IMG/VR virus record: IMGVR_UViG_3300032893_000218
Location: 1-31,492 of that record
Length of the DNA stretch: 31,492 nt
Reading direction: 5' to 3' (one strand)
Origin: a virus
Shown here: in pieces, positions 5,310-27,132 of the stretch
How positions within the stretch are numbered: position 1 is the stretch's first letter
Layout: each line of letters opens with the position of its first letter
Notes under the pieces: generated by a model
What the model was told of the DNA's origin: nothing
Database searches by the model: none
The model's input: the letters and a program-made list of their open reading frames with translations, nothing else
Translations under genes and position numbers: made by a program

Positions 5310-5398
5310 ATTGCTTCTCGATATATTGAATTATCTTTAGAATTTTGTCCGATATAAATTTTGCCGTTTATTGTATTTGTAATTTTATAAATATTCAA
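5306..5398 (-). pseudogene. GIY-YIG endonuclease N-terminal remnant
   Basis: A 30-codon frame starting at a TTG (5398), with AGGATAAT upstream, reads 'NIYKITNTINGKIYIGQNSK' and ends at a TGA that overlaps the ATG of the DUF4054 gene. 'IYKITN.iNGKiYIGq' is the start of the GIY-YIG nuclease domain (GIY-like strand, then YIG). The rest of the domain, including the catalytic Arg and Glu region, is absent. It sits in the 148-base gap between major capsid and adaptor genes and resembles the longer fragment at 14498-14668. Most likely the relic of a homing endonuclease. Confidence 0.6.
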
Positions 5399-6496: not shown

Positions 6497-6994
6497 TTAA
6501 GTTGCCGCAACTGCGGTATCGGCTTGATATAATTCGACCCTGATTATATTGTTTGTTACGCCTTTATCTAAAGCAACTCCGATTGTAGTATATCCGGTTG
6601 TTACATTTTGTATCTGTCCAATATATGAAAGATTCAATGAAACTTTAGAACCACGAGAAATAGCCTCATGACATTGAAAATACATCACAGCGCCCGGTCT
6701 CGCTACATCAAAACTTTCTCCCGGTGAATTTGCATTTTTCTTAATATTAAATGTTTTAATACCATAAAGTCGATCATAGTCATTTGTTCTTTTATCGACA
6801 ATAGGAATACCCTGCGCATCCATATCGGAAGCTCCAAGATCAGTTAATAGACATCCTTCACCTGGCAACATGGTCAATGTCGAAGTGGCTTCAGGATTGT
6901 ATCTTACGTGAATTATTGAACCTTCAGGACATCTTGAAAGATCAAGTTGACCTGGAACGGGTGTTTTATCAAATTGATTGCTATATACGCTCAT
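6497..6994 (-). CDS. Head decoration / capsid cement-like protein
   Basis: A 165-residue protein located between protease/scaffold and major capsid, the usual position of decoration proteins. 'ARPGAVMYFQCHEAISRGSK' 'VSLNL' followed by 'TIGVALDKGVTNNIIRVELY' matches the pattern of small beta-barrel virion proteins, in which a strand like 'G..v.v....G.v......iGvald.a' precedes the C-terminus. Its ATG overlaps the stop of the upstream protease/scaffold gene by four bases. Function is inferred from order and fold-like pattern; no residue-level signature is decisive. Confidence 0.6.
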   Translation of the reverse strand: MSVYSNQFDKTPVPGQLDLSRCPEGSIIHVRYNPEATSTLTMLPGEGCLLTDLGASDMDAQGIPIVDKRTNDYDRLYGIKTFNIKKNANSPGESFDVARPGAVMYFQCHEAISRGSKVSLNLSYIGQIQNVTTGYTTIGVALDKGVTNNIIRVELYQADTAVAAT

Positions 6995-7500
6995 TTATTC
7001 CCCCTTGTTCCATATTTCTCTGACCCGACGGCAATTCTATCGGCTTTTGTACTAATTACAATTTGATAACCATTAGCCTGACTTTTTCCCATAGCATTTT
7101 CAAGTTTTTTAAAATTATTTTGTTTTTCCTCTTTCTTTTTTTCGTCTTCTTCATCTGCATTATCTTTTTCTTTTTTTTTGTCTGTCTCTTCATTTGTCTT
7201 CATTTTATTGCGCTTGTAGCTGTCCGCAAGTGCAGAAGCCTTTATTTTTTGACCGTTGACATTAATTTCATCATCTGGATTAATCATTTTTTGTTCTTGC
7301 TGTTCAGCTACATAAATTTCAATAAGTTTGCTTAAAGGAACTTGTTCGCCGTCAATGTCAATATATGATTCTTCGGCATTTATCATATCGAGTTTTTCTT
7401 CGGTTCCTGGAGGTTGCATTTCTTTACGTTCCTTATCCTCCACTTCATTTTTTTTCTCTTTAGGGAAGAAAAAATTAAAAACTTTTCCCTTTTCTGCCAT
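6991..7500 (-). CDS. Nested in-frame scaffold protein
   Basis: Within the protease/scaffold gene an ATG at 7500 ('MAEKGKVFNFFFPKEKKNEV') is preceded by AAAAAAGGAGAACAATAAT, a strong ribosome site in the middle of a coding sequence. Translation from it gives a 169-residue Lys/Glu-rich protein that corresponds to the scaffold half. Lambda makes its scaffold Nu3 from an internal start in the protease gene C, and the same logic fits here. The strength of the internal site is seen in the sequence; the product itself is inferred. Confidence 0.6.
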   Translation of the reverse strand: MAEKGKVFNFFFPKEKKNEVEDKERKEMQPPGTEEKLDMINAEESYIDIDGEQVPLSKLIEIYVAEQQEQKMINPDDEINVNGQKIKASALADSYKRNKMKTNEETDKKKEKDNADEEDEKKKEEKQNNFKKLENAMGKSQANGYQIVISTKADRIAVGSEKYGTRGNK

Positions 7501-8064
7501 ATTATTGTTCTCCTTTTTTATCGAATTAAGGTATTCTGACCATAATTCGCTTGCTTTTGAATTCTGAATTTCTTCTGGAATTCCGTACACCTTAGCGCCT
7601 TCATAACGAGGATTGTTTACAATCGCCATATGCGTATATATGCCGTTCTTTACCTCTCCGTCATATTCAAATCCATGCCATTTGCCACCTTCTGCCATTT
7701 CAGTCGGTTTATATGCACAACTGGCGGAAAACCCATCTTTAATGTTTTGTTGAGTTGAAATATTCCAGATCATACAATCAGCATAGCACCAGCCATTATC
7801 AAGCCATCCGCAATCATATATTACTCCGTCGGCTATAGAATACTTTTCATCGTCGCTCAACTTAAACGCTTCTTCAGCACTCAAAGTTTTATGTTCTTCA
7901 TTAACAATTGGTTTCCCAATGAATGAAGATCGCATACGATCAAGAGTATCTCTCGACACAAATACTGTCCCGTCATCGACATCTTCGTATGAGCAGACAC
8001 CAGGTTCGATAAATTCAATCCGGTAACGTTTAGGATAATTATTAGTTCCTACAGAATATTCCAC
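6991..8064 (-). CDS. Prohead protease fused to scaffold (DUF2213-like)
   Basis: A 357-residue protein. The best start is a GTG at 8064 with GGAG five bases upstream. Longer frames would begin inside a terminator hairpin. The N-terminal half (about residues 1-190) follows the DUF2213 pattern: 'VSRDTLDRMRSSFIGKPIV' then 'EEHKTLSAEE', 'WCYADCMIW', 'KDGFSASCAYKPTE' with a Ser candidate nucleophile, and 'YTHMAIVNNPRYEGAKV' with a His. This is the herpes-type prohead protease layout. The C-terminal half is Lys/Glu-rich and coiled-coil-like, as in a scaffold, with a long KKKEKDNADEEDEKKKEE run. An internal ribosome site probably yields the scaffold alone (see 6991-7500). The gene has its own promoter and terminator-like leader. 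Confidence 0.7.
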   Translation of the reverse strand: MEYSVGTNNYPKRYRIEFIEPGVCSYEDVDDGTVFVSRDTLDRMRSSFIGKPIVNEEHKTLSAEEAFKLSDDEKYSIADGVIYDCGWLDNGWCYADCMIWNISTQQNIKDGFSASCAYKPTEMAEGGKWHGFEYDGEVKNGIYTHMAIVNNPRYEGAKVYGIPEEIQNSKASELWSEYLNSIKKENNNMAEKGKVFNFFFPKEKKNEVEDKERKEMQPPGTEEKLDMINAEESYIDIDGEQVPLSKLIEIYVAEQQEQKMINPDDEINVNGQKIKASALADSYKRNKMKTNEETDKKKEKDNADEEDEKKKEEKQNNFKKLENAMGKSQANGYQIVISTKADRIAVGSEKYGTRGNK

Positions 8065-8076
8065 TAAAACTCCAAT

Positions 8077-8113
8077 AAAAAAGGGAGAACTAAGCAAACT
8101 GCTTAATTCTCCC
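8077..8113 (-). terminator. Terminator-like hairpin between promoter and protease gene
   Basis: On the minus strand the arm GGGAGAATTAAGC pairs with GCTTAGTTCTCCC across a short loop (one mismatch) and is followed at once by TTTTTT, the signature of an intrinsic terminator. It lies about 60 bases downstream of the promoter at 8170-8197 and ends only a few bases before the ribosome site of the protease gene. It therefore acts either as an attenuator of the head operon or as a terminator that must be overridden. Confidence 0.75.
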
Positions 8114-8135
8114 TAACGGATTTTTTCTCACTAAG
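8111..8135 (-). promoter_or_regulatory. Conserved leader box, copy 1
   Basis: On the minus strand this reads CTTAGTGAGAAAAAATCC followed by GTTAGGG. The same 25 bases with one change occur at 19143-19167, at the same place relative to promoter and hairpin. The final GGG is the start of the terminator stem. It is not part of the promoter and is not coding, so conservation implies an RNA- or protein-binding role in the leader. Confidence 0.6.
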
Positions 8136-8169
8136 GTGAATTATACTTATGAAGAAGTATCTATTCCTT

Positions 8170-8197
8170 ATTTTACTACCAATTTAACTTTTGTCAA
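8170..8197 (-). promoter_or_regulatory. Sigma-70-type promoter for the head operon
   Basis: TTGACA (8192-8197) and TAAAAT (8170-8175) are separated by 16 bases on the minus strand. The spacer ends TTGGTAG, nearly identical to the promoter at 19190-19217. A 6-bp hairpin, ATACTT/AAGTAT, lies just after the expected start site and could protect the 5' end of the transcript. It would drive protease/scaffold and the genes to its left. Confidence 0.75.
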
Positions 8198-8205
8198 GCA
8201 AAATG

Positions 8206-8376
8206 TTAAATTTTTATGATAGGTTCTATTTTTTCTTTTTTATCTTCTTCAATACGTTCCGATTCATGTTTTTCAATTATTCCTTTCCCATCACGTGCTT
8301 TTATAAGAATAGTTCCATATTGAAGATTTGCTATAGCCTGTTGTAATTCTTTTATTTGAAATGGTGTTAGTTGCAT
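8206..8376 (-). CDS. Small DUF2292-like protein
   Basis: A 56-residue protein starting at ATG 8376 and overlapping the previous gene by ten bases. 'LQQAIANLQYGTILIKARDG' followed by 'KGIIEKHESERI' fits the short DUF2292 pattern: 'l..al..i.yGsv.i.v.dg.v..ie..ekiR'. Members are small proteins of unknown role found in Firmicutes and their phages. It is the last gene before the head-operon promoter and has no terminator of its own. Confidence 0.6.
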   Translation of the reverse strand: MQLTPFQIKELQQAIANLQYGTILIKARDGKGIIEKHESERIEEDKKEKIEPIIKI

Positions 8377-8558
8377 ATTTTGTCCATTTCAATAATATCT
8401 ATATCTTTCTCATTATACCAATTTGCCGTATTATCATTTTTTTCTATATCTGGTATGTTTTCTATTTCTTTTTCTATTCGTTTTAATAAATCTATGTTTT
8501 TGTCAGATAATATATTTTTTAAATCATTTATATCTATAGAATTTTCTTTTTCTTTCAT
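8367..8558 (-). CDS. Small highly charged protein, unknown function
   Basis: A 63-residue protein, acidic and Asn/Lys/Ile-rich ('LKNILSDKNIDLLKRIEKEI' then 'ENIPDIEKNDNTANWYNEKD'), predicted largely helical. The ATG at 8558 follows the radical SAM stop by a few bases, with AAGGAATTTAC upstream as ribosome site. The gene overlaps the DUF2292-like gene. I recognise no family. Placement at the end of the sugar/radical SAM cargo block suggests it belongs to that transcription unit. Confidence 0.55.
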   Translation of the reverse strand: MKEKENSIDINDLKNILSDKNIDLLKRIEKEIENIPDIEKNDNTANWYNEKDIDIIEMDKICN

Positions 8559-8567
8559 GTAAATTCC

Positions 8568-9632
8568 TTATATAAAATTAATATGTTTTGGTTCTTTTTT
8601 AATACAATAATTAATAAATTCATTTTTATTTTCAAACATACAGGGTAATCTACATTGCCGCATCGGATTATGTTTAAAATAAAAATCTTTTTTTTCATTA
8701 CTATTCCAAAGTTCTTTAAATGTTTGATTATTTAAATCACCAATATAACCTAAATCATTATATGCTAAGGTACAACAAGTATATACTTTAAAATCAGCTC
8801 CAATATAAATAACTAAATCTTTCATGGGACAATTATTATAATCTTGTTTTTTATTAAACATATTCCCAATTCTATCATCAAACAAATTAAAAACATCAAA
8901 TTTATTATCTGCTAAAATTTTAGCTTTTTGAGACAATATTTTAGCTTCTTTAAAAAAAGAATTAAAATAATTAAATCCTTCAGGTTGAAATGCAGCAGAG
9001 ATACGTACGTTATCTACGCCAATATCTTTAAACATTTTAACCGCATCATATATTTCTTTATAGTTTTCTTGACAAACGACAAAACCTATCCCTATTATTG
9101 TATCATTGCTTTTATTTTTTATTAATTTTTTAATATTTTCAATCATTTTATCATAATGAAATTCTGGAGCATTTTTTAATTTACAATAAGTTTCTTTTGA
9201 ATAAGCATCAACTGAAATTCTTATCCATTTAGATTTGTTTAATATTTCAATCAATTTATCATTTAATAATATTCCATTAGTTACTAAAGCTAAATCCATA
9301 TTATTATCTATTGTTTTTTGAAATATTTCGTTTATATTCGGATGACACAATGGTTCTCCACCACCTGTATATTGAATGGCTTTTATATTACATTTATATA
9401 AGCAATCCAATAGACTTAATATTTTATCAGTTGGTATATAATCCTTTTCATTAAAATGCTGATTAGACTCATTTCCTGTAATTCTATACGCACAAAATTT
9501 GCATTTTTGATTGCAAAAATTAGTAGGAATTAAATGAACTTGAATTGGATATAAAAAATCTTTATTTTTTAATCTATTTATTATTTCTGGATGATGTATT
9601 AATTTATATGGACTATATTCATCTTTTATCAT
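8568..9632 (-). CDS. Radical SAM enzyme with SPASM-like C-terminus
   Basis: A 354-residue protein. 'NFCNQKCKFCAYRITG' gives the radical SAM CxxxCxxC cluster (Cys40, 44, 47), and 'YTGGGEPLCHP' is the GGE motif that binds the SAM amino group. 'LVTNGILL' and 'IRISVDAYSKETY' are further barrel strands. The C-terminus has spaced Cys residues ('NNCPMKD', 'VYTCCTLAY', 'QCRLPCMFEN') typical of SPASM/twitch auxiliary Fe-S domains. Relatives modify peptides, sugars or tRNA; the substrate cannot be read from the sequence. The start has AAAAAAGGATGATTAAAT upstream. Neighbours are glycosyltransferases and a methyltransferase, so a role in building or altering a virion or cell-surface glycan is possible but inferred. 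Confidence 0.8.
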   Translation of the reverse strand: MIKDEYSPYKLIHHPEIINRLKNKDFLYPIQVHLIPTNFCNQKCKFCAYRITGNESNQHFNEKDYIPTDKILSLLDCLYKCNIKAIQYTGGGEPLCHPNINEIFQKTIDNNMDLALVTNGILLNDKLIEILNKSKWIRISVDAYSKETYCKLKNAPEFHYDKMIENIKKLIKNKSNDTIIGIGFVVCQENYKEIYDAVKMFKDIGVDNVRISAAFQPEGFNYFNSFFKEAKILSQKAKILADNKFDVFNLFDDRIGNMFNKKQDYNNCPMKDLVIYIGADFKVYTCCTLAYNDLGYIGDLNNQTFKELWNSNEKKDFYFKHNPMRQCRLPCMFENKNEFINYCIKKEPKHINFI

Positions 9633-9734
9633 ATTTAATCATCCTTTTTTACTACATTCGGTTATTGTTGCATTATATTTATTCTCCATTTTTTTTAAAT
9701 AAATATTTCGTTTAATAATACTTATTATAAGTAC

Positions 9735-9878
9735 TCAATTAATAGAACAATATATAGAAACTAAAATAATGCCTCCAATAAATTTAAATACAGTTCCATG
9801 AAATGTAATTAATCTAAAAATAAAATATATTGGACCTAAAATAATAATGCTCAATAAAAGTATTCCTAAAATACCCAT
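9735..9878 (-). CDS. Small membrane peptide, possibly truncated by an in-frame TGA
   Basis: A 47-residue reading from ATG 9878: 'MGILGILLLSIIILGPIYFI' then 'FRLITFHGTVFKFIGGIILV' and a short end. There are two hydrophobic segments, so it is probably a membrane hairpin. After the TGA at 9735-9737 the same frame stays open for 32 more codons to 9639 ('IKRNIYLKKMENKYNATITE' 'CSKKG'), ending right at the radical SAM ribosome site. The natural protein may thus be 79 residues with a nonsense mutation. No clear ribosome site precedes the ATG; AAAAGG lies further upstream at the end of the glycosyltransferase gene. This explains most of the 270-base gap. Confidence 0.45.
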   Translation of the reverse strand: MGILGILLLSIIILGPIYFIFRLITFHGTVFKFIGGIILVSIYCSIN

Positions 9879-9903
9879 AATTATAAATTGAATAATTTTT
9901 ATA

Positions 9904-12900
9904 TTATCGATCCTTTTCAGTTTTATTTAAAACATATGCACTATTATTTTGTCCAATATGTTTACAAATGTCTTTAGGAAAATATGCTACAAAATAACCT
10001 TTTTCATGAAAACGTTTTGAAAATTCCCATTCAACCAATTTTGATTCTTTTAATTTCCCTAAAGGTTTAATATCTCTAAATAATTGTATGCCCGGATTAA
10101 GATTCCAGCCAATCCAAGCAGGCTTTCCTTCTTTATCTTTTGAATATTTATTATAATTATATTTATAATATTCGATATTGTCAATCTTTAATAATTTTTG
10201 TCCGACTGCCCCATTATCTCCCCATCTGAAAACAAATTCCTTGATTGATTGATCGTTATCCATTATTTGTAATGCTTTTCTGATAAAATTATCTTTTACA
10301 ACAAATTCCCAATCATCTTCACATTGAAACCAATAATCAGTCTTAATCTCATCAAATAATATATTTATACTTTTCCCATGTCCTTTGTCTATTTCTGTTT
10401 TTTCAATAAATTTATATGGTTTACCCGTTTTATTTAAAATAGCAATCATTCTTGATATATCAGATTCACTTGAACAATCGTCTACGACGATCAAATCTTG
10501 AATTAAATCTAAATCTAAACAATTATCAAAAAACGATTTTATGGTTCTTTCAAATAAATCATATCTTTTACAAGTTGTAAATGTCATTGTCATTTTAATA
10601 TCTGTTTGATATAGTTTGTCCAATAGTCCCCATTGTTTTCCGACATTTCTTTTAATTATGCCTTTTCTTTCATTATATAACTTTTTATTATATTCAACTC
10701 TTTTTTTTATTTCTTCATCTGAATCTTGATGGTTAAATATTCTATCATGCCATAAATGAATTATAAAGGCATCTACTTTTAAATATTTATTGCCATTTAA
10801 TATAAGTCTATCCATCATATCAGTATCATCGTATGCAATACCTATAAAATCCTCATCATATCCGCCTATTTCCAACCATTCAGATTTTCTGAATCCCATC
10901 ATAAATGGCAATAAGGTATTTAAATCTGCACATTCTTTTTCAATAATGTTTTCTGTCATTTCTCCTTTTTTAAGATATACCATTAATTTATTATAAGCAT
11001 CATCTTTTGCATGATTAGGTATAGTCATTATTTTATTTTCTAATATTAAAGGTCTAATAAAATTATCTACTGTTTCATTAAAAGAATAAATTTCAGCGCA
11101 CATCATTATAATATAATCACCATTAGATTGTTTCACACCAATATTTAAAGCATAGCTGGGACAACGCCAATAATCAGGATTCTTTTTTGTTATCCATGTT
11201 TCAATATATTTTACATTTTTATAATTACCGATTAAATCTTTTATTTCTTTTTCATCATTGCCTTCATCTAATATTAATATTTCATAATCATAATTTTTTT
11301 CAATATTTTGTTTTGATAATGATTCAAGATTCCATTTCAAAAGATTTGTTCTATGAAATGTTGTAATAATAATACTTATTTTAGGTTTATCAATTTCTTG
11401 ATATGGGGATTTCGAAAATATTTCTTTTTTTTCATTTTCCATTTGTTCCGGGATAAGATTCATTCCGACATTAATATTTTGATCATTATAAACATAGAGA
11501 ACTTTATCAATGAATTTAGAATGCTTATTTCCTGCCATTTCAAGCATTGGAGTCATAAAAGCAACGTCATCGGATCTATAATATTCACCTTTAGAATTTT
11601 TCAAATCATCTTCTTTTATATTCTTCCATAATTTATATTTAAATGTTTTTAGATGCGATGTTAACCATTTACCATTTTTGCGAATAGATTTTGTATCAAC
11701 TTTTTGACAATAATTTGAATAAGTTTTACTTGTCGGCTCAAATTGTCCATAAGTTATCCAAACATTATCTTTATTATAAACATCATTTAAATATGATAAT
11801 ACATTATTATCCGAAAGCCAATCATCACCATCCACCATAATAATTATATCTTCATCATCTTTACATATTTCATATATTCCAATTTGTATGTTTTTTAATT
11901 TAGAATTATTTAAAACATTTTTAAACATAATATTATTTTCATTATGATTAAATCCTTCGCTATACATTTCGACATTACTGTTATTTATAATAATCCAATC
12001 CCAATTTTTATAAGTTTGATTTTTAATAGATTCATAACATTTCATGAAATAATCGTGATCTCTTTTATCAAATGAATTTATCGTTGTAATTATTTTAAAT
12101 TTATTTTCTTTAAATTGTTTATAATAAACATCAAGATATGAAGTAAGCGTATTATTATATTTATGATAATTATTTTCATTTAAATTATTGATATATTTTT
12201 CTGCTAATTTATGCCCTGCGTACCAATGTAATCCTATGCTATTTTCAGGGATAGAATTGCATTCATTGAATATCTTTTCAATGTTTAAAGAATCATAAGG
12301 ATATACAATATCCATATCTATATTTTCATATCGATATGATTCTAAGACTTTAATATTATTAAAATTAAATTTTGCAAACAAATCCGGTCCGGCGGATTGA
12401 TATTCATGAATCTTAAAATTTGCTTTGGCATAATCAAATAAATTTTTGAAAAATACATTTTCTGGGGCAGACATTAAAAATCCGCATGAATGATAACCGT
12501 TATTAAAGCATAGCCATAAAGATTTATTATAATATTTGATTTGATTTTTATTAAATGCGGTCATTGGCTTTATATAAATTATATCATTATCAGACCATAG
12601 CCCGCCTAATTTCCATAATAAAAACCAGCGAATAAAATCTGATTTGAAATTTTCCGGTATGTCTACAGGAATATTAACAGATTTAAAATCAAATGGCTTT
12701 ATCTTAATTTCTGGATAATTTTTTCGCATATAATCAAAATAATCAGGAGTATTTATTTTATAATCTTGCTCGCCTGTCTTCCAGGTGATAGAGCCTTCAT
12801 AATGATTCATTGGAACATATAATCTTATTTCCCAGTCAGGATTAAGTTTGTGAAAAGAAACCATTGACATCATACGCAAATAAGGCAATGTTTTATTGCC

Positions 12901-13143
12901 CCAATAAAAACTGCATATTTTAGGAATGTTTAATAGTTTCCATTCTTGCCCGTTGTCAAATTCATCAATTGAATTTTCTTTTATTATCTTTAAATCTCTC
13001 GGATAGGCTTGTGTTAATTGCATCGCTCGATTAAGATCAATCATTACTTCATCATTATGAGCAAGGTTTATTTTCCTATTATTTATATCGACAATACCTG
13101 AGTATGTAGATTTACCATAATTTTTAATTTTTACCGATGGCAT
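9904..13143 (-). CDS. Four-domain glycosyltransferase
   Basis: A 1079-residue protein. Residues 1-50 form a small beta-type phage module ('MPSVKIKNYGKSTYSGIVDI'). Residues about 70-340 resemble the DXD-sugar-binding/OCH1-like family, with 'RWFLLWKLGGLWSDNDIIYI' (DND at 185-187). Residues 348-570 are a GT-A family 2-type domain with 'IIIMVDGDDWLSD' (DGD at 438-440). Residues 588-845 are a second GT2-like domain ('ISIIITTFHRTNLLKWNLES'), in which the DXD position reads 'IIMMCAEIYS' and may be degenerate. Residues 849-1079 are a third ('MTFTTCKRYDLFERTIKSFF', 'WFQCEDDWEF') that is closely similar to the separate enzyme at 13777-14526. Such an array suggests stepwise assembly of an oligosaccharide on a virion protein, DNA or host glycan. 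Acceptor and sugars are unknown. Confidence 0.8.
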   Translation of the reverse strand: MPSVKIKNYGKSTYSGIVDINNRKINLAHNDEVMIDLNRAMQLTQAYPRDLKIIKENSIDEFDNGQEWKLLNIPKICSFYWGNKTLPYLRMMSMVSFHKLNPDWEIRLYVPMNHYEGSITWKTGEQDYKINTPDYFDYMRKNYPEIKIKPFDFKSVNIPVDIPENFKSDFIRWFLLWKLGGLWSDNDIIYIKPMTAFNKNQIKYYNKSLWLCFNNGYHSCGFLMSAPENVFFKNLFDYAKANFKIHEYQSAGPDLFAKFNFNNIKVLESYRYENIDMDIVYPYDSLNIEKIFNECNSIPENSIGLHWYAGHKLAEKYINNLNENNYHKYNNTLTSYLDVYYKQFKENKFKIITTINSFDKRDHDYFMKCYESIKNQTYKNWDWIIINNSNVEMYSEGFNHNENNIMFKNVLNNSKLKNIQIGIYEICKDDEDIIIMVDGDDWLSDNNVLSYLNDVYNKDNVWITYGQFEPTSKTYSNYCQKVDTKSIRKNGKWLTSHLKTFKYKLWKNIKEDDLKNSKGEYYRSDDVAFMTPMLEMAGNKHSKFIDKVLYVYNDQNINVGMNLIPEQMENEKKEIFSKSPYQEIDKPKISIIITTFHRTNLLKWNLESLSKQNIEKNYDYEILILDEGNDEKEIKDLIGNYKNVKYIETWITKKNPDYWRCPSYALNIGVKQSNGDYIIMMCAEIYSFNETVDNFIRPLILENKIMTIPNHAKDDAYNKLMVYLKKGEMTENIIEKECADLNTLLPFMMGFRKSEWLEIGGYDEDFIGIAYDDTDMMDRLILNGNKYLKVDAFIIHLWHDRIFNHQDSDEEIKKRVEYNKKLYNERKGIIKRNVGKQWGLLDKLYQTDIKMTMTFTTCKRYDLFERTIKSFFDNCLDLDLIQDLIVVDDCSSESDISRMIAILNKTGKPYKFIEKTEIDKGHGKSINILFDEIKTDYWFQCEDDWEFVVKDNFIRKALQIMDNDQSIKEFVFRWGDNGAVGQKLLKIDNIEYYKYNYNKYSKDKEGKPAWIGWNLNPGIQLFRDIKPLGKLKESKLVEWEFSKRFHEKGYFVAYFPKDICKHIGQNNSAYVLNKTEKDR

Positions 13144-13150
13144 TTATTTT

Positions 13151-13780
13151 TTATCTCCTATATTTTATAGCATACCATAAGGTATTGATTCCTTCAAATG
13201 ATAATGGTTCTGATAACCAAACAAATTTACCATATTTATCAAATATGCTTTTCATAAACTCTGGGCTTCTTCCGATAGCGCCACACATTTGCATTTCATC
13301 ATTGACCGGTTTTTCATCCATATTATTCCCATCTTTTGCGCTTGCAAATTGCATGGCAAATACTCCCGTTTTGTTTAAGCATGGCATCATCATTTTTATT
13401 TGATAATTTAAATCTTCATTATTCATGTGCTGTGAAACAAGATGAGAAATTATTAAATCAAAATAATCTTGCGGTATTTTATCATAATTTTCTGGCGTAT
13501 AACCTTCGATTATAATTCCTTCCATTTTGTCGATTGCTTTTTGTGAAATATCGGCAGCGTAAATATTATCAGTTATATTTTTTAATTGTTTAATATCATT
13601 CCCGCTTCCAATACCTATAACTAAAACTTTCATGTCTATTTTAAAAGTTGTATCTAATAATTGATGAATTTCTTTAAATGGCTGATTAGATAACCAATAT
13701 TCACAATTCATTCCATTTTGTTTCATGTCAGTATTTGAATATTCGTAGTTCATTTCCCAGAAATCTTTTATTTTATTCAT
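13151..13780 (-). CDS. SAM-dependent class I methyltransferase
   Basis: A 209-residue protein. 'MKVLVIGIGSGNDIKQLKNI' is motif I (the Gly-rich SAM loop), 'IYAADISQKAIDKM' carries the acidic residue for the ribose, and 'FDLIISHLVSQHMNNEDL' matches the post-motif/motif IV region of small-molecule and sugar methyltransferases. 'MMPCLNKTGVFAMQFAS' is the next strand. No target-recognition domain or DPPY/NPPY motif is present, so DNA methylation is unlikely. Lying between two glycosyltransferase genes and overlapping one (ATGA), it probably methylates the sugar or the glycosyl acceptor. The substrate is inferred from context only. Confidence 0.75.
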   Translation of the reverse strand: MNKIKDFWEMNYEYSNTDMKQNGMNCEYWLSNQPFKEIHQLLDTTFKIDMKVLVIGIGSGNDIKQLKNITDNIYAADISQKAIDKMEGIIIEGYTPENYDKIPQDYFDLIISHLVSQHMNNEDLNYQIKMMMPCLNKTGVFAMQFASAKDGNNMDEKPVNDEMQMCGAIGRSPEFMKSIFDKYGKFVWLSEPLSFEGINTLWYAIKYRR

Positions 13781-14526
13781 TTATTTGTTCCATTTAAAAC
13801 ATACGCACTATTCCCAGTTCCTAAATGTTCGCAATAGTTAATCGGGAAATATGCTATTCGATAGCCAGCTTTCCAGAATTGCCTTGAATAATTAAATTCA
13901 AAGCATGGCTCACCGATTGGAAACTTTCCAAGTTTTCTTATTTCCTTAAAGTTCCAAATTGCCGGATTGAGATTCCAACCGCACCAGGCAGATCGACCTT
14001 GCGAATCTCTATTATGGCATCCGGTATATTCATATTTGATATAATCAAAATCATTAATATTTTTATATTTGGAATTTTCAAAATATCCTCTTGTTAATTT
14101 TTGGTCAATTGCCATAATATCAGTTGTTCTCAAAAGGACTTGTTTTATTGATGGATCATTATTCATTATCGCAATAGATTTTGTTATGTAAAAATCGGGT
14201 TTAATAAAAAGCCAGTCATCTTCTAACATAAGAATATAATCAGAGGCTATCATATCATACATAATATTTAAACTTTGAGGATGACCTTTATCAGATTCTT
14301 TTTTTTCTTTAATTATATATGGAATATTTATTTTGTTTAAAATGTAATTCATTTCTTGAATATCTTCATTTATCGAATTATCATCAATTAAAATAATATT
14401 TGAAATAAACATTTTGTCTAAACAATTATCAAATAATGATTTGATTGTTTTTTTAAAAAGTTCTAATCTTTTACATGTTATCAAACACAAAGTTATTTTA
14501 TCCAATTTTAAATATTTCCCATCCAT
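13777..14526 (-). CDS. GT2-type glycosyltransferase, paralogue of the last domain of the 1079-aa enzyme
   Basis: A 249-residue single-domain GT-A enzyme. 'ITLCLITCKRLELFKKTIKS' opens the nucleotide-sugar fold, 'IILIDDNSINED' is the usual second strand, and 'YILMLEDDWLFIKPD' carries the acidic metal-binding motif. 'SAWCGWNLNPAIWNFKEIRK' and 'YFPINYCEHLGTGNSAYVLN' align well by eye with residues 849-1079 of the neighbouring 1079-residue protein, pointing to duplication. The start ATG lies inside a truncated GIY-YIG frame (14498-14668). The weak upstream sequence suggests either coupling to that frame or a reduced expression level. Confidence 0.75.
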   Translation of the reverse strand: MDGKYLKLDKITLCLITCKRLELFKKTIKSLFDNCLDKMFISNIILIDDNSINEDIQEMNYILNKINIPYIIKEKKESDKGHPQSLNIMYDMIASDYILMLEDDWLFIKPDFYITKSIAIMNNDPSIKQVLLRTTDIMAIDQKLTRGYFENSKYKNINDFDYIKYEYTGCHNRDSQGRSAWCGWNLNPAIWNFKEIRKLGKFPIGEPCFEFNYSRQFWKAGYRIAYFPINYCEHLGTGNSAYVLNGTNK

Positions 14527-14668
14527 ATTTTTTAATTGCTTTTATAATAAGAATACCACTACCCCAATATTTTTTAAAAATATTTCTTGAATATTGTCCA
14601 ATATAAATTTTATTATTTAATAGATTTGTTATTTTATAAATTATAAATTTTTGAGGATTACAGGTCAT
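14498..14668 (-). pseudogene. Truncated GIY-YIG endonuclease
   Basis: A 56-codon frame from ATG 14668, with GGGAGCAAAGA as ribosome site, reads 'FIIYKITNLLNNKIYIGQYS' then 'KKYWGSGILIIKAIKKYGWE'. The first part is the GIY-YIG strand pair, and the second is the 'yyGSG..l..AikKyG..nF' helix of phage homing endonucleases. The frame stops soon after, in the first codons of the glycosyltransferase gene, so the catalytic Glu and DNA-binding regions are missing. It looks like a gene cut off by the insertion of the sugar cluster. Its N-terminus resembles the remnant at 5306-5398. Confidence 0.65.
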
Positions 14669-14703
14669 TCTTTGCTCCCATAATTTTTATGCGATGTCGC
14701 ATA

Positions 14704-15555
14704 TTATTTAAATTTGATAAACAGTAGTAATGCAAGACAGATGCTTGCCAAAAGTTCAATCGTAAATGATGGTATAAAAAAATATATCATCAATAAAGTT
14801 CCAGAAAATAATTCCTTTTTTTCATTAATGATTATATCGGAATTATTTAATAGTGTCAACTTATTATTTTTCAATTTTTGCAATTCATTATCTTTTTCAA
14901 TTATTTTATTTTCAAAGCCGTTTTTGCCATTAAGATTCCAATAATAAAAAGCATATTGTTTGTCATCTTTATCCGTCACGGAAAGTATTTGCCTCTGTCT
15001 ATCCCGTTCGGTTTTTAATGACGTCAATTCATCATTCAAGGTTTTAATGTTGTCATCAATATTGTTTAATTGAACATTGTCCTTTTTAGTTTGAATCATG
15101 GATTTTGAATAAATATTCTTATCCTGATATTTATCATATTGATAATATAATATTGTCGCCGTATTAAATACAAATAGAAGTAAATATAAAAATAAAAATA
15201 ACCAACTTAATCCATTTTTTTTAATCCAGAAAAATATCCATACTTCAAAAGCGACTATAGCCATAATCATAAAAGCAAATGAACATATAAAAGCGTCGAT
15301 TGGTTCTTTACTTTTTAAATTGCCATAATAATTATATTTAATGCCTATATAAATAAAAGCGATTCCGACAAGTCCTATAATGATTTTGAAAATAACAAAC
15401 ATTATTGAAATATTTTTTTGCTTCTTTTTTTGTTCTTTTGGCTTTTGTGACGACGTCGTCAGTTCGGGTTCAAATATGTCTGGAATAATTTCGGGCATTA
15501 TTTCTGAACTCATTTTTTCTTCTTCTTTCTTTTCGTTGGGATATTCTCTAATCAT
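14704..15555 (-). CDS. Membrane protein with coiled coil, unknown function
   Basis: A 283-residue protein. After a charged N-terminus (Glu/Lys-rich to residue 48), hydrophobic segments occur at about 49-74, 86-110 and 116-137, and a fourth at 251-280. Between the third and fourth is a heptad-like region ('LNNIDDNIKTLNDELTSLKT' and 'NKIIEKDNELQKLKNNKLTL'), suggesting a coiled coil outside or inside the membrane. The start could also be the ATG at residue 15 ('MSSEIMPEIIPD'); neither has a clear GGAG. No family recognised. Lying straight after the MuF gene, it might act in superinfection exclusion, DNA entry or anchoring of head parts, but this is speculative. Confidence 0.6.
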   Translation of the reverse strand: MIREYPNEKKEEEKMSSEIMPEIIPDIFEPELTTSSQKPKEQKKKQKNISIMFVIFKIIIGLVGIAFIYIGIKYNYYGNLKSKEPIDAFICSFAFMIMAIVAFEVWIFFWIKKNGLSWLFLFLYLLLFVFNTATILYYQYDKYQDKNIYSKSMIQTKKDNVQLNNIDDNIKTLNDELTSLKTERDRQRQILSVTDKDDKQYAFYYWNLNGKNGFENKIIEKDNELQKLKNNKLTLLNNSDIIINEKKELFSGTLLMIYFFIPSFTIELLASICLALLLFIKFK

Positions 15556-15558
15556 AAT

Positions 15559-16596
15559 TTATATAATAAGTGGAATACTTACGCACCTGCATAAAAAGGC
15601 TCGCCCAGGATGTTGTAATTCTCCGCCTATATTGCTCCTGCTTTTCCATTTATTATTTTTTAAATCATCTAAACTATCACAATAGACTGTCGGATCATCA
15701 TATTTGCAATATTTACCATTCATAACATAATGATTCATATGCCCAGGATTTGGCTCATACAATCCTCCGGGCGCTCCGACAACCCGATTATCATGTGAAG
15801 TTGACCAGCGATAATATTTGATTCCCGAATCCGTAAATCTTGTTTCTCTCAATGTACTCATAAAAATTGAAGTTTCTTGTCTGGCTAAGAATTTTGCCTT
15901 TGCTTTAGAAGTTTCAAATTCATTTTGTATCATTTCAATTAGTTTATCTTTACGATAACCATCCATTGCCGATTTTGATACCATATCTCTCAATCTTTGT
16001 GTCTGAACTGTATCCCAGCATAATTGAGGATTGTCTTCATTGACGATATACAATTTCATGTTCTCATTGTATTGCTGAATAAGTTTTAGTCGAATTGATT
16101 CATTTGGAGTGTAATTAATCCCCAGTGATTTATACTCTGCCGATAAAGTTTTTTCAATTTGATCGGCTGTCCAATCCAATGGCAACTTTAAATCTTTAAT
16201 CCTTTTTTTCATTTCATCAGACATAGAATCAATTCGCTTTTCAAGTTCTTTATGTAGACGTTCGCTTTTTGTGTTCGCATTTACCGACATAGTCCTTACA
16301 TCATTCGGCAATAAATTTAAATCTTTCACTCGAAAACATTTGCTTCTTGAATCATATTTAGCAAATTTTGATAATTCTTTTGACGTTTGAATTGTAAACT
16401 TACCAGTAAACTTTCCATCTTTATATACAATTTGACCTTTTGATATTTTTTCAAGAAGTAATTTTGATGAATTTAATAGTTCTTTTGAATTATAAAATTT
16501 GTCTGATAATAATTCTTGAATTGGTATATAATAAACTTCCCAGAATAATTTTGATAATATTTCTTCGATAGGAATATATTCGTTTGTTATTTTCAT
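15559..16596 (-). CDS. MuF / SPP1 gp7-like head morphogenesis protein
   Basis: A 345-residue protein. The C-terminal region 'AKFLARQETSIFMSTLRETR' then 'YYRWSTSHDNRV', 'HYVMNGKYCKYDDP' and 'HPGRAFLCRCVSIPL' is the MuF domain: 'R.E....n..r...a...G...y.W....d.rvr..H..l.g....fd.p........HPg..i.CRC'. The N-terminal two thirds are helical and specific to this group. Family members are minor head proteins injected or involved in portal/procapsid assembly. The gene starts in an ATGA overlap with a small zinc-type gene. Confidence 0.8.
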   Translation of the reverse strand: MKITNEYIPIEEILSKLFWEVYYIPIQELLSDKFYNSKELLNSSKLLLEKISKGQIVYKDGKFTGKFTIQTSKELSKFAKYDSRSKCFRVKDLNLLPNDVRTMSVNANTKSERLHKELEKRIDSMSDEMKKRIKDLKLPLDWTADQIEKTLSAEYKSLGINYTPNESIRLKLIQQYNENMKLYIVNEDNPQLCWDTVQTQRLRDMVSKSAMDGYRKDKLIEMIQNEFETSKAKAKFLARQETSIFMSTLRETRFTDSGIKYYRWSTSHDNRVVGAPGGLYEPNPGHMNHYVMNGKYCKYDDPTVYCDSLDDLKNNKWKSRSNIGGELQHPGRAFLCRCVSIPLII

Positions 16597-16754
16597 TTTA
16601 TATTTTCGAGTTCACACCATTCGGGAATACTTTTATAATCATCATAAAATAATATTTTATCACATAATTTGCATTTATATTCAACCGCGTTATGTTCCCA
16701 TATACGATAAGGGCATTCTTCACAAGTTATTATTTTGAGATTTATTTGTTTCAT
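16593..16754 (-). CDS. Small zinc-finger-like phage protein
   Basis: A 53-residue protein from ATG 16754. 'ITCEECPYRIWEHNAVEYKC' then 'KLCDKILFYDD' and 'IPEWCEL' give a C..C...C..C arrangement with the closing 'IP.WC.L' often seen in small phage zinc proteins. Probably binds one zinc ion. The stop overlaps the MuF start (ATGA). Ribosome site is a modest AACAGAGAA. Function unknown. Confidence 0.65.
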   Translation of the reverse strand: MKQINLKIITCEECPYRIWEHNAVEYKCKLCDKILFYDDYKSIPEWCELENIK

Positions 16755-16762
16755 TTCTCTGT

Positions 16763-16888
16763 TTAAATTCTATCCTCTAATGCTAAAATATATCTTGCCA
16801 TGAATGTCATTATTGTCGGTACTTTGTCTTTTGTCGTCCGTTGATATTCAACAAACTTATTTACAAAATCATCGTATTTATCATTCAT
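16763..16888 (-). CDS. Small protein, unknown function
   Basis: A 41-residue protein starting at ATG 16888, overlapping the end of the upstream 173-residue gene. 'NDKYDDFVNKFVEYQRTTKD' then 'KVPTIMTFMARYILALEDRI' reads as two amphipathic helices. No family recognised. It is supported by its tight packing between two genes and its composition. Confidence 0.5.
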   Translation of the reverse strand: MNDKYDDFVNKFVEYQRTTKDKVPTIMTFMARYILALEDRI

Positions 16889-17402
16889 TCTGTGCCTCTA
16901 TTCTATCATCAAGTTCTTCTTCAATATTATCAATTTGTATACAATAAGAATGTGCCTGTTCATAAGTAATTCCAAATTTCCACATCAAAATAGGTTCTTC
17001 AAATTCATGTCTTAATGTATTACTTCCATGCGCTAACCATATTTCAAACTCTGGACAATATTCTGGATTTGCCATCCAGTTTGTACCTTCAAGAAATTCA
17101 GGATCATAATTTTTCTTCACATAATCAGGATCAACTTTAAATATTTTTATTTCAGGTAAGACATCGCTTTCAAGCGATCCGAGATATATTTTCCATGACT
17201 CTGAATTATATTTAAAAACATTTTTTTTATTTCTATGTATTTCAATCATGTTCTTTTTGTCTCTCCACATCGAATAACAAATAGCAGATGCTTGTTCTTG
17301 ATTCTTTGCTGTACCTTCTTTTAGAACAATAGGGATACAAGCAGAAACAAACGATTGTTCATCTTTGAAGTCTTTTGGATTAGGAATAGTATTTTCCTCC
17401 AT
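16881..17402 (-). CDS. Phage structural-region protein of unknown function
   Basis: A 173-residue protein. The N-terminal 'FVSACIPIVLKEGTAKNQEQ' then 'ASAICYSMWRDKK' is a helix pair I have seen in phage proteins near portal/MuF genes ('..C......e......qa.aiCy..w'). The second part, 'DPEFLEGTNWMANPEYCPEF' 'EIWLAHGS', then 'HEFEEPILMWKFGITYEQAH', resembles a small metal-peptidase-like fold in which a 'HE..E' helix is expected. Here 'RHEFEEPI' retains H and E. Catalysis is not certain. The role may be in head assembly, inferred from position between portal and MuF. Confidence 0.5.
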   Translation of the reverse strand: MEENTIPNPKDFKDEQSFVSACIPIVLKEGTAKNQEQASAICYSMWRDKKNMIEIHRNKKNVFKYNSESWKIYLGSLESDVLPEIKIFKVDPDYVKKNYDPEFLEGTNWMANPEYCPEFEIWLAHGSNTLRHEFEEPILMWKFGITYEQAHSYCIQIDNIEEELDDRIEAQNE

Positions 17403-17413
17403 TAAACAAATAT

Positions 17414-17578
17414 TTATTGTAATTTATATCCTTCTTCTCCGTCTCGTATTTTATCAATAAGTTCATAAAAATCTTCTTCTGAATGTTCATCATATACTTT
17501 TTGAATTTTTTTATCAACTTCGTTTAATTTATCTTGATTTACGCCTATAATATCAGGAACAAATTCATCTTTTGTCAT
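17414..17578 (-). CDS. Small acidic helical protein
   Basis: Taking the ATG at 17578 gives 54 residues: 'MTKDEFVPDIIGVNQDKLNE' then an acidic helical stretch ending 'IDKIRDGEEGYKLQ'. A longer frame to 17635 is open, but its extra N-terminus coincides in a different frame with the better-supported 43-residue gene, and it lacks a ribosome site. It overlaps that gene by 14 bases; it could also be the continuation of it after a frameshift. Function unknown. Confidence 0.45.
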   Translation of the reverse strand: MTKDEFVPDIIGVNQDKLNEVDKKIQKVYDEHSEEDFYELIDKIRDGEEGYKLQ

Positions 17579-17696
17579 ATCCAACAGATGTTTTTTTATG
17601 TTCACTTCCATCGCTCCAAGTATGAATTTCACCAATTTTGGCTTTAGAATTATTATAATAAAATATTTTTCGATTATCTTTATAATAAAATAACAT
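17565..17696 (-). CDS. Short phage protein with KIGEIHTWSDG motif
   Basis: A 43-residue frame from ATG 17696, just after the portal stop. AAAAGGAT (in the last portal codons) makes a good ribosome site at the right distance. 'KIGEIHTWSDGSEHKKTSVG' resembles a beta-hairpin motif found in small phage proteins next to portal genes ('kvGei.tw.DG...rKt..G'). In those relatives the sequence usually continues a few residues, while here it ends 'YDKR' at a TGA. The end may be disturbed by a frameshift into the next ORF. Confidence 0.5.
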   Translation of the reverse strand: MLFYYKDNRKIFYYNNSKAKIGEIHTWSDGSEHKKTSVGYDKR

Positions 17697-17700
17697 ATTA

Positions 17701-19104
17701 TTATCCTTTTAATAACATTTGATTAAAATTCGGTTTTATTGCATTCGCTCGCTTTATACCAATTTGCGGTATGGGATTTTGTGGTTGATCTCCGTTCGGT
17801 TGTTCTGCTTTATCTGGTATCGCCGATTCATCAACATCTATTGTAATAATGTTTTCTTTCTTTGCCATTTCAATAGATTGTGGATGATTTAATATTCCCG
17901 CTTGATATAAAGCAATTATTCTATTGGTCTTTGAAGCTTTTACGGATTCTTCATCTACAGATGAAAGTATTCTTAACGACGGGAACTTAATTTCAAATGT
18001 CGGGACATAACCATATCGTCGGATAAAAAGAATTTTTAATATCTTCTTAACAATAGGTTTAATCTTTGTTCTAATTTCACTTTCAATCATTGCATTGTAA
18101 TTTTCAATATCATCTTCGCCAGAATTAAAACCCGCAGCACTTATACCAAAAAGTTTGGTTACTGGCATATTCACGGCTCCAGCAATTCCAATTCTGTTTT
18201 CTCGTTTAACTTCTGCAAGTCCCGCAAAGTTCAACGTTTTTTGATCGTATTTATCATTAATGTCCATGACAATGGCATTAAGATAATTTTTAATCTCATT
18301 CATCGTTTGAACACGTTGTCGAACCGCTTGAACACCACCAGGATTGATAAGTTTTGAAGCGAGGTCTTTTATATAATAAACATCAAGTTTTGATTCATCA
18401 AGAATCTCGTAAAGCACATCATCGGTTTTTAAATAATTATTAAGGTCTCGAATTAAGCATTCGGCAACCGACATACCCCATCCCTTAAGTTGTCGACGAA
18501 TATATGCCGGAGCTTTTTTGCCTCTGCAAGCCATTACCCGTGATCGATGAATCTTTTGTCCATATATAAAATAATAATCGCTACTGCCAAGATCAAGATA
18601 TTGATTTTCAATATCTTCAAACGCACTGCCAGTCATGGTTAATATCCATCGATCTGCATCATAAAAAGCAATTTTCCCATTATGTAAAGAATCAATATCA
18701 AGTTTTTCTTCTGGGTCTTGTTCTGTATTAATTACAACTCCGCCACCACCAAAAAGGCGACCCCATGTAAAAGTATCTAAAATTGTATCCCAACAATGGT
18801 AATCATCCCAATCGTCAAGGATTTCTTTAATTTCATCATTCCCAACTTCACCGCTTTCAATTTCTACGCCTTTTGATATCGCATCTTGTACTGGTATTTG
18901 AATAGCACGTTGAAAAATTGAATTGCCTGTATAAAGATATGTAAGAATAATACGATTAATTGTTATAAGTGAATAATTATTTGCGTATCCAATTGTTCCA
19001 TAATCAGATAATTGACTACCGCCAGTCATCAATTTAATTCCAGCTGCAAGTTCAGCATATGAATTACTAAACTCTCTGTTAATATGTCGATGCCGTCTAC
19101 TCAA
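17701..19104 (-). CDS. Portal protein (DUF1073-like)
   Basis: A 467-residue protein. The start is a TTG at 19104 with TGAGGC upstream. 'YTGNSIFQRAIQIPVQDAIS' 'KGVEIES' then 'TFTWGRLFGGGGVVINTEQD' and 'VTKLFGISAAGFNSGEDDIE' 'NYNAMIESE' are signatures of DUF1073/portal proteins: the P-domain opening, the wing strand and the 'lfG.sp.G.n.tg..d..nY' loop. It forms the dodecameric channel through which terminase pumps DNA. The C-terminus is Pro/Gln-rich. It is preceded by a dedicated promoter and leader (19122-19217), so portal onward is a separate transcription unit from terminase. Confidence 0.85.
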   Translation of the reverse strand: MSRRHRHINREFSNSYAELAAGIKLMTGGSQLSDYGTIGYANNYSLITINRIILTYLYTGNSIFQRAIQIPVQDAISKGVEIESGEVGNDEIKEILDDWDDYHCWDTILDTFTWGRLFGGGGVVINTEQDPEEKLDIDSLHNGKIAFYDADRWILTMTGSAFEDIENQYLDLGSSDYYFIYGQKIHRSRVMACRGKKAPAYIRRQLKGWGMSVAECLIRDLNNYLKTDDVLYEILDESKLDVYYIKDLASKLINPGGVQAVRQRVQTMNEIKNYLNAIVMDINDKYDQKTLNFAGLAEVKRENRIGIAGAVNMPVTKLFGISAAGFNSGEDDIENYNAMIESEIRTKIKPIVKKILKILFIRRYGYVPTFEIKFPSLRILSSVDEESVKASKTNRIIALYQAGILNHPQSIEMAKKENIITIDVDESAIPDKAEQPNGDQPQNPIPQIGIKRANAIKPNFNQMLLKG

Positions 19105-19121
19105 TTTTGCCTCATTAAATT

Positions 19122-19142
19122 AAAAGGCTTCACAAAGAAGCC
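19122..19142 (-). terminator. Terminator-like hairpin between promoter and portal gene
   Basis: The minus strand reads GGCTTC TTTGT GAAGCC followed by TTTTAATTT: a 6-bp GC-containing stem with a short U-tract. It lies between the promoter at 19190-19217 and the portal ribosome site, equivalent to the stronger hairpin at 8077-8113. Confidence 0.6.
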
Positions 19143-19167
19143 CCCTAATGGATTTTTTCTCACTAAG
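19143..19167 (-). promoter_or_regulatory. Conserved leader box, copy 2
   Basis: On the minus strand this reads CTTAGTGAGAAAAAATCC then ATTAGGG, differing from copy 1 (8111-8135) at a single base. It abuts the terminator-like stem in both places. Confidence 0.6.
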
Positions 19168-19189: not shown

Positions 19190-19217
19190 ATTTTACTACC
19201 ATTCCGTTTTTTGTCAA
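19190..19217 (-). promoter_or_regulatory. Sigma-70-type promoter for portal operon
   Basis: TTGACA (19212-19217) and TAAAAT (19190-19195) with a 16-base spacer ending ATGGTAG. The upstream ACATTTTACT and the stretch TGGTAGTAAAATAA are shared with the promoter at 8170-8197, so these two are probably co-regulated late promoters. Confidence 0.75.
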
Positions 19218-22695: not shown

Positions 22696-22818
22696 TTACC
22701 TTTTACCAGACCTACCGCCAGCTCTTGCCGGAGTTCCCGGAGCGCCTACACCGCCCCCCCATGACTCTTGATACAATGCAATGCTGTCTAAAATTGCTTT
22801 AATCCATGTCAAAATCAT
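22696..22818 (-). CDS. 40-residue Gly-rich peptide between radical SAM and ParB genes
   Basis: From ATG 22818, with AAAAGG six bases upstream, the reading gives 'MILTWIKAILDSIALYQESW' then 'GGGVGAPGTPARAGGRSGKR'. The first 20 residues form an amphipathic helix; the last 20 are Gly/Pro/Arg-rich. It overlaps the 3' end of the radical SAM gene by 20 bases and is followed directly by the ParB-like gene. The layout of a conserved-looking helix plus Gly-rich tail next to a radical SAM enzyme resembles a RiPP precursor, but a small structural or membrane-active peptide is equally possible. No family recognised. Confidence 0.6.
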   Translation of the reverse strand: MILTWIKAILDSIALYQESWGGGVGAPGTPARAGGRSGKR

Positions 22819-23956
22819 TTTTTAACCTTTTAATACGCTTAACCTGTTCTATTATAATATCCTGGAAAGGATAATAATAAAGTGTCTCTTGTGTTCGATC
22901 TCGCCCAAGGAAATAAATCGTATTTGAAAATCCGGTAAATGATGCTATTTCTTCTGGATTCTCCCAACAAAATTTAACATAATCTTTGTAAGCAAAAGTG
23001 TCTGGAAGTCGTTTTTGAGTAAAATTATCAAGACATCTTACATCCTGTTTCCTGATAGTTATATCAAGGAATTGATCTTTAAACCTTTCATAAAACATAT
23101 CAAAAGAAACGCCTTCCGCTTCTTCTTGCCATGTTAAATCATAATACTCTTTACTGAAAATGTCAAGATCGCTTCCGATTAATATCGGTTTGCCGAAATG
23201 TTTTTTTAAAATATCTCCATATGATGGTGTTTTAATTGAGAAAATGTTTTTTGATCTAACTGAAATTTTATTTTTAATGGCAAATTCCATGATAGGTCTT
23301 AATTTTATATTTTGACTTCTTGTTAATGAATTTATTTCTTTTGAATTGGCATAGATATTCTTAATCCCATGTAATGGCTGAATAATATATCCAATTTCTG
23401 GATTTTTTGACATGAATTTTATTATTTCTTGATTGGAAATATATTTTGATATAACCGGATTAAATCCGACATTAATCATAATACCTTTTTTCTTTAATTT
23501 TTTAATAAGATTTAATCTGTTTTCAATAGATGGGGCTTTCTTCTCCAATAGTTTCGCTGAATCATCAAATGAAGTTATCGTAATATAAACTACATCTTTC
23601 TTGGTCACTATTTTCAGGAACCATTCTAAATCTTCTTCGGAATGATAACCTTTTGTTTGATAGTATATAGGAAATCCGGCATCCCGTAACATTTGAATTT
23701 CAGATTTGTATGTTTCTTTATCGTTACAATTAAAAAAATCTGATGTATTTGAAATACAAATAGGATAACGATTTTCAAGATAATATGATAATAAAGAACC
23801 ATCATATTTTTTATTTATAGCGTTCTCAATTTGTTTTATGGATGTTTTTTTATCTTTACTACCGACAAAACAGTACCGACATTTATTCAAACAATCACCA
23901 ATATCTAAATGCAATGGTATTGGAATACTATAAACACCATGAAGTTTTATACTCAT
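22799..23956 (-). CDS. Radical SAM enzyme (SPL-like)
   Basis: A 385-residue protein. 'LDIGDCLNKCRYCFVGSKD' supplies the CxxxCxxC cluster (Cys22, 26, 29). 'YPICISNTSDFFNCNDKET' and 'AGFPIYYQTKGYHSEEDLEW' follow the spore photoproduct lyase/Rv2578c-type pattern, with strand 'YITITSFDDSAKLLEKKAPS' and 'RLNLIKKLKKKGIMINVGFN'. SPL-type enzymes repair or alter DNA bases by radical chemistry. A phage copy next to ParB-like and terminase genes could act on DNA or on the adjacent small peptide. The target is not visible. The start overlaps a 26-codon leader ORF (ATGA). Confidence 0.75.
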   Translation of the reverse strand: MSIKLHGVYSIPIPLHLDIGDCLNKCRYCFVGSKDKKTSIKQIENAINKKYDGSLLSYYLENRYPICISNTSDFFNCNDKETYKSEIQMLRDAGFPIYYQTKGYHSEEDLEWFLKIVTKKDVVYITITSFDDSAKLLEKKAPSIENRLNLIKKLKKKGIMINVGFNPVISKYISNQEIIKFMSKNPEIGYIIQPLHGIKNIYANSKEINSLTRSQNIKLRPIMEFAIKNKISVRSKNIFSIKTPSYGDILKKHFGKPILIGSDLDIFSKEYYDLTWQEEAEGVSFDMFYERFKDQFLDITIRKQDVRCLDNFTQKRLPDTFAYKDYVKFCWENPEEIASFTGFSNTIYFLGRDRTQETLYYYPFQDIIIEQVKRIKRLKNDFDMD

Positions 23957-24033: not shown

Positions 24034-24057
24034 AATATGTTCCTTTTTTTAAAAAGT

Positions 24058-24132
24058 GCCGGCTAACTGAATTAAAAAATTATAAAAATATTCATCAGCC
24101 GGCTAAAAAAAATCCTGTATGTCGGGAGGATT
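24058..24132 (-). terminator. Tandem terminator-like hairpins in leader of radical SAM operon
   Basis: On the minus strand AATCCT...AGGATT (24111-24132) is followed by a run of T, and a second inverted repeat GCCGGC...GCCGGC (24058-24103, arms extended by CTGA-type pairing) is followed by CTTTTT. Both lie between the promoter and the first ribosome site, so readthrough must be conditional or inefficient. Confidence 0.6.
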
Positions 24133-24191
24133 ATTTTAAAAAATTTCTAATAATCTCAATCTAAGGGTTATTTAGTAACCCTAATATTTAT

Positions 24192-24220
24192 ATATTATAT
24201 CTAATTTAATATTTTGTCAA
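24192..24220 (-). promoter_or_regulatory. Promoter for radical SAM / ParB / terminase operon
   Basis: TTGACA (24215-24220) and TAATAT (24192-24197) with a 17-base spacer. A 7-bp hairpin AGGGTTA/TAACCCT (24164-24182) sits at the expected 5' end of the transcript. Confidence 0.75.
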
Positions 24221-27085: not shown

Positions 27086-27111
27086 TTTATCTATACAAAT
27101 AGACATTCAGG

Positions 27112-27129
27112 TTTATCACTCCTGATAAA
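27112..27129. promoter_or_regulatory. Inverted repeat at transcript start, possible operator
   Basis: TTTATCA CTCC TGATAAA forms a perfect 7-bp inverted repeat with a 4-base centre. It lies just downstream of the -10 element of the promoter at 27133-27161, so it could be a repressor site or a 5' hairpin. Confidence 0.45.
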
Positions 27130-27132
27130 TTT

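Follow-up and report, generated by a model that had tools for sequence, protein, structure and literature searches.

A two-copy 25-base box between promoter-like sites and stem-loops ahead of the portal and head protease genes of an uncultured phage

Our analyses showed that the 25-base box CTTAGTGAGAAAAAATCCRTTAGGG occurs twice in an uncultured phage, once between terminase and portal (copy 2) and once between a block of cargo genes and the head maturation protease (copy 1). In both leaders, the order of elements is promoter, box, stem, Shine-Dalgarno sequence and start codon, with the Shine-Dalgarno sequence directly after the stem. We tentatively favor an attenuation leader in which the box, possibly as a hairpin, would be read by a factor controlling readthrough, in analogy to the LoaP-controlled dfn/mln operons, although we would rate this reading at a little short of an even chance. 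The window, i.e., the whole 31,492-base IMG/VR record, is probably a genome fragment, and its minus strand carries all genes with family matches. Along transcription, early-type genes (Gp157, DUF1367, NinG and a DnaB-like helicase) are followed by a terminase that carries an intein-like Hint domain, the portal and a minor head protein. Beyond these lies the cargo, with glycosyltransferases, a methyltransferase and a radical SAM protein, and downstream of it the head protease, the major capsid protein and a neck protein. The "head operon" of the initial annotation is more precisely described as the head maturation protease, ORF 6497-6994 and the major capsid protein. The assigned protease start agrees with that of the orthologue in L091, the closest syntenic relative. 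As separate observations, the terminase large subunit (806 aa, 19233-21653, minus strand) has its intein-like insertion with Hint_2 from residue 478, and two similar fragments at 5329-5392 and 14578-14641, 78% identical in DNA, resemble GIY-YIG endonuclease N-termini and are perhaps homing-gene remnants.

Table 1. Elements of the two leaders and the genes behind them, in window positions
Feature	Position	Strand	Basis
Portal-leader promoter, TTGACA-16-TAAAAT	19190..19217	-	11/12 match; promoter-like site at the same junction of L091
Box copy 2, CTTAGTGAGAAAAAATCCATTAGGG	19143..19167	-	Pattern search of the window
Stem 2, GGCTTCTTTGTGAAGCC, then TTTTAATTT, weak terminator-like	19126..19142	-	Sequence, folding; not reported by terminator scan
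Shine-Dalgarno GAGG and portal TTG start	19102..19113	-	Sequence, ORF, family match
Portal protein gene	17701..19104	-	phrog_146, E 1e-74; TTG start 19104
Protease-leader promoter, TTGACA-16-TAAAAT	8170..8197	-	11/12 match; promoter at the same junction of L091
Box copy 1, CTTAGTGAGAAAAAATCCGTTAGGG	8111..8135	-	Pattern search of the window
Stem 1, 15 bp, then T-tract, strong intrinsic-terminator-like, foot overlaps box	8082..8114	-	Terminator scan, folding
Shine-Dalgarno GGAG and head protease GTG start	8062..8073	-	Sequence, ORF, family match
Head maturation protease gene	6991..8064	-	phrog_2229, E 1e-7; orthologues in relatives; GTG start 8064

The initial annotation had reported two box copies with one difference, each downstream of a near-identical promoter with a 16-base spacer, and both statements were confirmed, with the boxes lying on the minus strand. 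CTTAGTGAGAAAAAATCC followed by RTTAGGG gave exactly two matches in the window at up to 3 mismatches, against a mean of 0.00 in 100 dinucleotide shuffles. The copies agree in 24 of 25 bases (96%), and local alignment of the two upstream regions scored 22 at the box, whereas 600 cross-genome control pairs reached 13 at most, with a 99th percentile of 11. The sequences between promoter and box align no better than shuffles (101 of 500 were as good), nor do those past the box (242 of 500), in accordance with the earlier remark that the stem sequence is not conserved. Because this identity sits beside flanks that align no better than shuffles, selection acting on the box and not on its flanks would be the simplest reading. 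A promoter-leader cassette might merely have been copied between the junctions, the boxes staying alike by chance or gene conversion and having no function. Promoter region and box indeed align as a single homologous unit, and the box is not known elsewhere in the collections searched. Such plain duplication is nevertheless very unlikely, as uniform drift would hardly preserve the box next to a spacer and a stem that no longer align, and both promoter positions are ancestral in the phage family.

Beyond the shared hexamers, TGGTAGTAAAATAA is found exactly in both promoter regions. The distance from promoter to box is 32 nt in the protease leader and 20 nt in the portal leader, and box and start codon are 38-46 nt apart in the two leaders. 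This arrangement could also be read at the DNA level, with the box as an operator about 30-55 bp past the start point, where a phage protein would block or release RNA polymerase and TTAGTG..TTAGGG would provide two half-sites. The box lies close behind both promoters, and its two TTAGKG repeats are 18 bp apart. Given the unequal promoter spacing, the lack of an identified repressor in the genome fragment and a stem right against the box that an operator leaves unexplained, we regard this explanation as improbable.

The terminator-like stem that had been placed directly against both boxes proved to be of unequal quality. Stem 1, a 33-nt stem-loop of -21.9 kcal/mol with T6, passes the terminator scan, whereas stem 2, a 17-19-nt stem-loop with 6-7 bp and -8.5 to -10.1 kcal/mol, fails it. 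By sequence, the terminator between promoter and gene is thus strong in leader 1 and weak in leader 2, and the strong one, located between promoter and Shine-Dalgarno sequence, supports attenuation. The final box bases TTAGGG overlap the stem foot, and therefore box and stem are not separate elements. Alternatively, stems and box might be mature 5' UTR structures that slow the decay of the abundant head mRNAs or adjust how readily ribosomes bind, with no regulated termination at all. This would fit the position of the stems immediately before the Shine-Dalgarno sequences and the poor terminator tail of the stem 2 hairpin. Copy 1 moreover allows pairing of the box UCC and the A-tract with the Shine-Dalgarno region GGAGUUUU, with pair probabilities of about 0.9 for UCC. 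Copy 2 shows no such pairing, however, the box is conserved while the stems are not, and a strong intrinsic terminator such as stem 1 with its T6 would not be expected in a pure stabilizer. We hence consider a stabilizing or translational leader unlikely, yet it stands first in our order of alternatives, followed by short RNAs, the DNA operator, plain duplication and a leader peptide.

On its own, the box is predicted to fold into a weak hairpin with an A-rich loop, which is no better than shuffles for copy 1 (z -0.7) and modestly better for copy 2 (z -2.0). The one variable base is G or A, either of which pairs with U; in the frame GTG AGA AAA AAT CCR the same change is synonymous. Since U pairing is kept and the change is silent, it cannot discriminate between a hairpin and a peptide. 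In the latter case, the box would open a short ORF, GTG AGA AAA AAT CCR TTA GGG ((M)RKNPLG), of 13 and 20 codons in the two leaders, and translating ribosomes would open the stem. The frame is the same in both copies, and in copy 2 the TGA of this ORF overlaps the portal TTG. Nonetheless, with a GTG that lacks a Shine-Dalgarno sequence in either copy and reading frames that diverge after seven codons, a leader peptide appears the most improbable of the alternatives. We also considered mutually exclusive antiterminator and terminator structures. These fit copy 1 with its AGGG overlap, but in copy 2 the box hairpin and the terminator core coexist, and we rejected them as a shared mechanism.

The two leaders were compared with those of related phages. 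About 170 related loci were gathered via portal and major capsid protein scans; single-sequence scans with the major capsid protein and a glycosyltransferase found no relatives, whereas an alignment query for the capsid protein did. L091 shares the gene order of the window, with the giant glycosyltransferase and a radical SAM gene in place, and its portal and capsid proteins are 59% and 56% identical. Before its portal gene lies a promoter-like site with TATAAT (TTTGCT-17 by eye, TTGCTT-16 in the scan), and before its protease gene TTGATA-16-TATAAT, while neither box nor terminator was found at these two junctions. Box and stem have thus been added to a promoter pair that is conserved. In another relative, L003, terminase and portal nearly touch.

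We then counted, for nine orthologous genes, promoters that would leave next to no leader. A match had to reach at least 9/12 with a spacing of 16-18 and to end 5-7 nt ahead of an ATG close to the aligned start. Such sites precede the protease in 22 of 95 and the portal in 9 of 68 cases, and the seven other genes together in 2 of 294, counts that are drawn from related sequences and do not represent independent events. The background further upstream has a mean of 1.31 (protease) and 0.90 (portal) per three-base bin. This promoter placement is clearly confined to portal and protease, which marks their two junctions as conserved promoter sites. Promoters so placed set the transcript start at the ATG or a few bases away, which suggests that portal and protease mRNAs are leaderless in many relatives. 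At these sites, the lineage of the window accordingly has a predicted leader that contains box and stem, whereas in many relatives hardly any leader would be left. Loci with promoter matches 5-7 nt before the ATG include L094, L097, L100, L113, L123, L133 and L134.

The promoter positions also bear on the idea that the leaders are sources of two short terminated RNAs of about 70-90 nt, with the box as seed or protein-binding site and with portal and protease expressed by readthrough from upstream genes. The distance from promoter to terminator would suit a small RNA, and leader 1 folds far better than its shuffles (z -5.9). In the relatives, however, the promoters at both junctions lead directly into the genes, and terminator 2 is weak. 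Box pairing with a trans-acting RNA, which the initial annotation had offered as an option, gained no support either, because duplexes of the box with phage translation starts were no better than those of shuffled boxes (188 of 200 were as good). We thus find short RNAs a rather improbable product of these leaders.

Returning to attenuation, leaders of comparable build occur in other branches. Eight other loci (L023, L179, L054, L078, L082, L064, L046 and L015) have a strong terminator at most 45 nt from the start of the protease gene. In three branches (L015/L017; L046/L062/L064; L179), a promoter-like site is followed by a shared hairpin that differs from the box, YGGAAWAACCG, a terminator and then the protease gene. 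This hairpin is located at 8047 in L015, 2819 in L062, 4158 in L064, 4173 in L046 and 12461 in L179, and the three branches are divergent. Near the protease start, terminators are as frequent in antisense as in sense orientation (11 of 116 each), and they precede another gene, o4396, in 10 of 68 cases. The overall excess is hence not strong and the recurrence of protease-leader terminators in relatives suggestive only. Rfam searches gave no match, and no known riboswitch or other Rfam leader matched the window at E up to 5. Structured leaders are also found before other genes. In relative L004 (3912-4065), a promoter, a structured leader and a terminator directly precede a glycosyltransferase gene and lack the box. 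In the window, a promoter and a very stable leader (26985-27140, minus strand, z -6.3) directly precede an HNH endonuclease gene; the leader has a closing stem of about 20 bp and two inner hairpins, AAAUUGUUAAA and UUUAACAAUUU could form an alternative helix, and neither an Rfam match nor a relative in the phage collection was found. A further promoter with a structured leader and two terminator-like stems (24040-24200, minus strand, z -3.7) precedes a small ORF and the radical SAM gene at 22799-23956.

Absence of the box from related genomes had been named in the initial annotation as one result that would refute the idea, and as far as searched the box is indeed absent from them. The exact 25-mer was found neither in IMG/VR nor in GTDB species genomes, and with up to 7 substitutions no promoter-linked match appeared in the loci compared. 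In the full records of 50 relatives, the 18-mer core with up to 3 mismatches matched 11 times in 6 records, fewer than a reversed control pattern with 22 matches in 8 records. Leader DNA gave only short matches in the phage collection, at E 0.1 or worse. Several candidates were discarded: the 18-mer core in IMG/VR matched two near-identical contigs near a tRNA gene, had neither promoter nor terminator there and was judged a chance match; a degenerate hairpin-shaped pattern matched once, antisense within a long ORF; and the near-identical promoter pattern matched four contigs, all unrelated. The box is thus lineage-specific within the collections searched, and it may simply be young, the portal of the nearest relative being only 59% identical.

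Among described systems, the LoaP-dependent dfn/mln operons of Bacillus velezensis come nearest, two operons with a nearly identical 5' leader hairpin and each with an intrinsic terminator (PMC12691694). As in these operons, the phage has an element common to two leaders and a stem ahead of the genes. In contrast to the dfn/mln hairpin, which has a UNCG loop and is read by a NusG paralogue, the phage box forms a weak hairpin with an A-rich loop, one of the phage terminators is weak, and no NusG paralogue was found among the searched proteins of the fragment. We therefore draw an analogy and do not claim membership. HK022 putL and putR are likewise two related phage RNA elements past two promoters that act on termination (PMC9378689). 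They are about 70 nt long, form two stem-loops and belong to early operons, whereas in the head operons of our phage only 25 nt are conserved, the rest aligns no better than shuffles and the stem that follows is terminator-like and not conserved; membership fails on size and structure. The lambda nutL and nutR sites are also present in two copies, between the promoter and the first terminator of two operons (PMC4496710), though of early and not of head operons. An N-like protein was not found among the searched proteins of the fragment, N proteins being short and divergent. The SAS/ESAS of cluster K mycobacteriophages are repeated sequences upstream of selected gene starts (PMC3203893); the SAS, a motif of 13 bp, sits at the translation start and is present in many copies, in contrast to our two-copy box, which abuts a terminator-like stem and precedes the start codon by 38-46 nt.

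Assuming attenuation, both copies would serve as 5' leader control elements of two capsid-gene transcription units. RNA polymerase would start at the two matched promoters, make a short leader of unrelated sequence and then the box, which on the nascent RNA may fold into the small A-loop hairpin or remain single-stranded. Right after the box and before the ribosome-binding site, transcription could end at the promoter-proximal terminator or hairpin, unless a trans-acting factor of phage or host origin reads the box and allows readthrough. The portal and the protease/capsid units would thereby be released together. Recognition of the box in nascent RNA, as initially suggested, is plausible in that the leader anatomy is real, selection on the box is the simplest reading and promoters are kept at both junctions. 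Shared leader control is supported by boxes that occupy corresponding positions in the two head-gene leaders while spacers and stems are unrelated, and the promoter positions conserved at portal and protease and not at the seven other genes, as well as the hairpin and terminator in protease leaders of other branches, count for the attenuation reading. Against it stand the mere two copies in one partial genome, the lack of the box in the relatives searched, a box hairpin that in copy 1 is no better than chance, stem 2 as a poor terminator and the fact that no antiterminator of the N, Q or NusG/LoaP type was recognized among the searched proteins.

In a broader and rather doubtful scenario, the two head-gene promoters, leaderless in many members, would repeatedly have gained lineage-specific RNA boxes and terminators, and a new kind of antitermination factor would time capsid synthesis. 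Should readthrough depend on the box, a common switch, acting once transcription is under way, would govern portal and capsid synthesis. The conserved promoter pair, with mRNAs that would often start at or near the start codon, is found in mostly uncultured phages and provides a concrete place to look for the timing of their capsid production.
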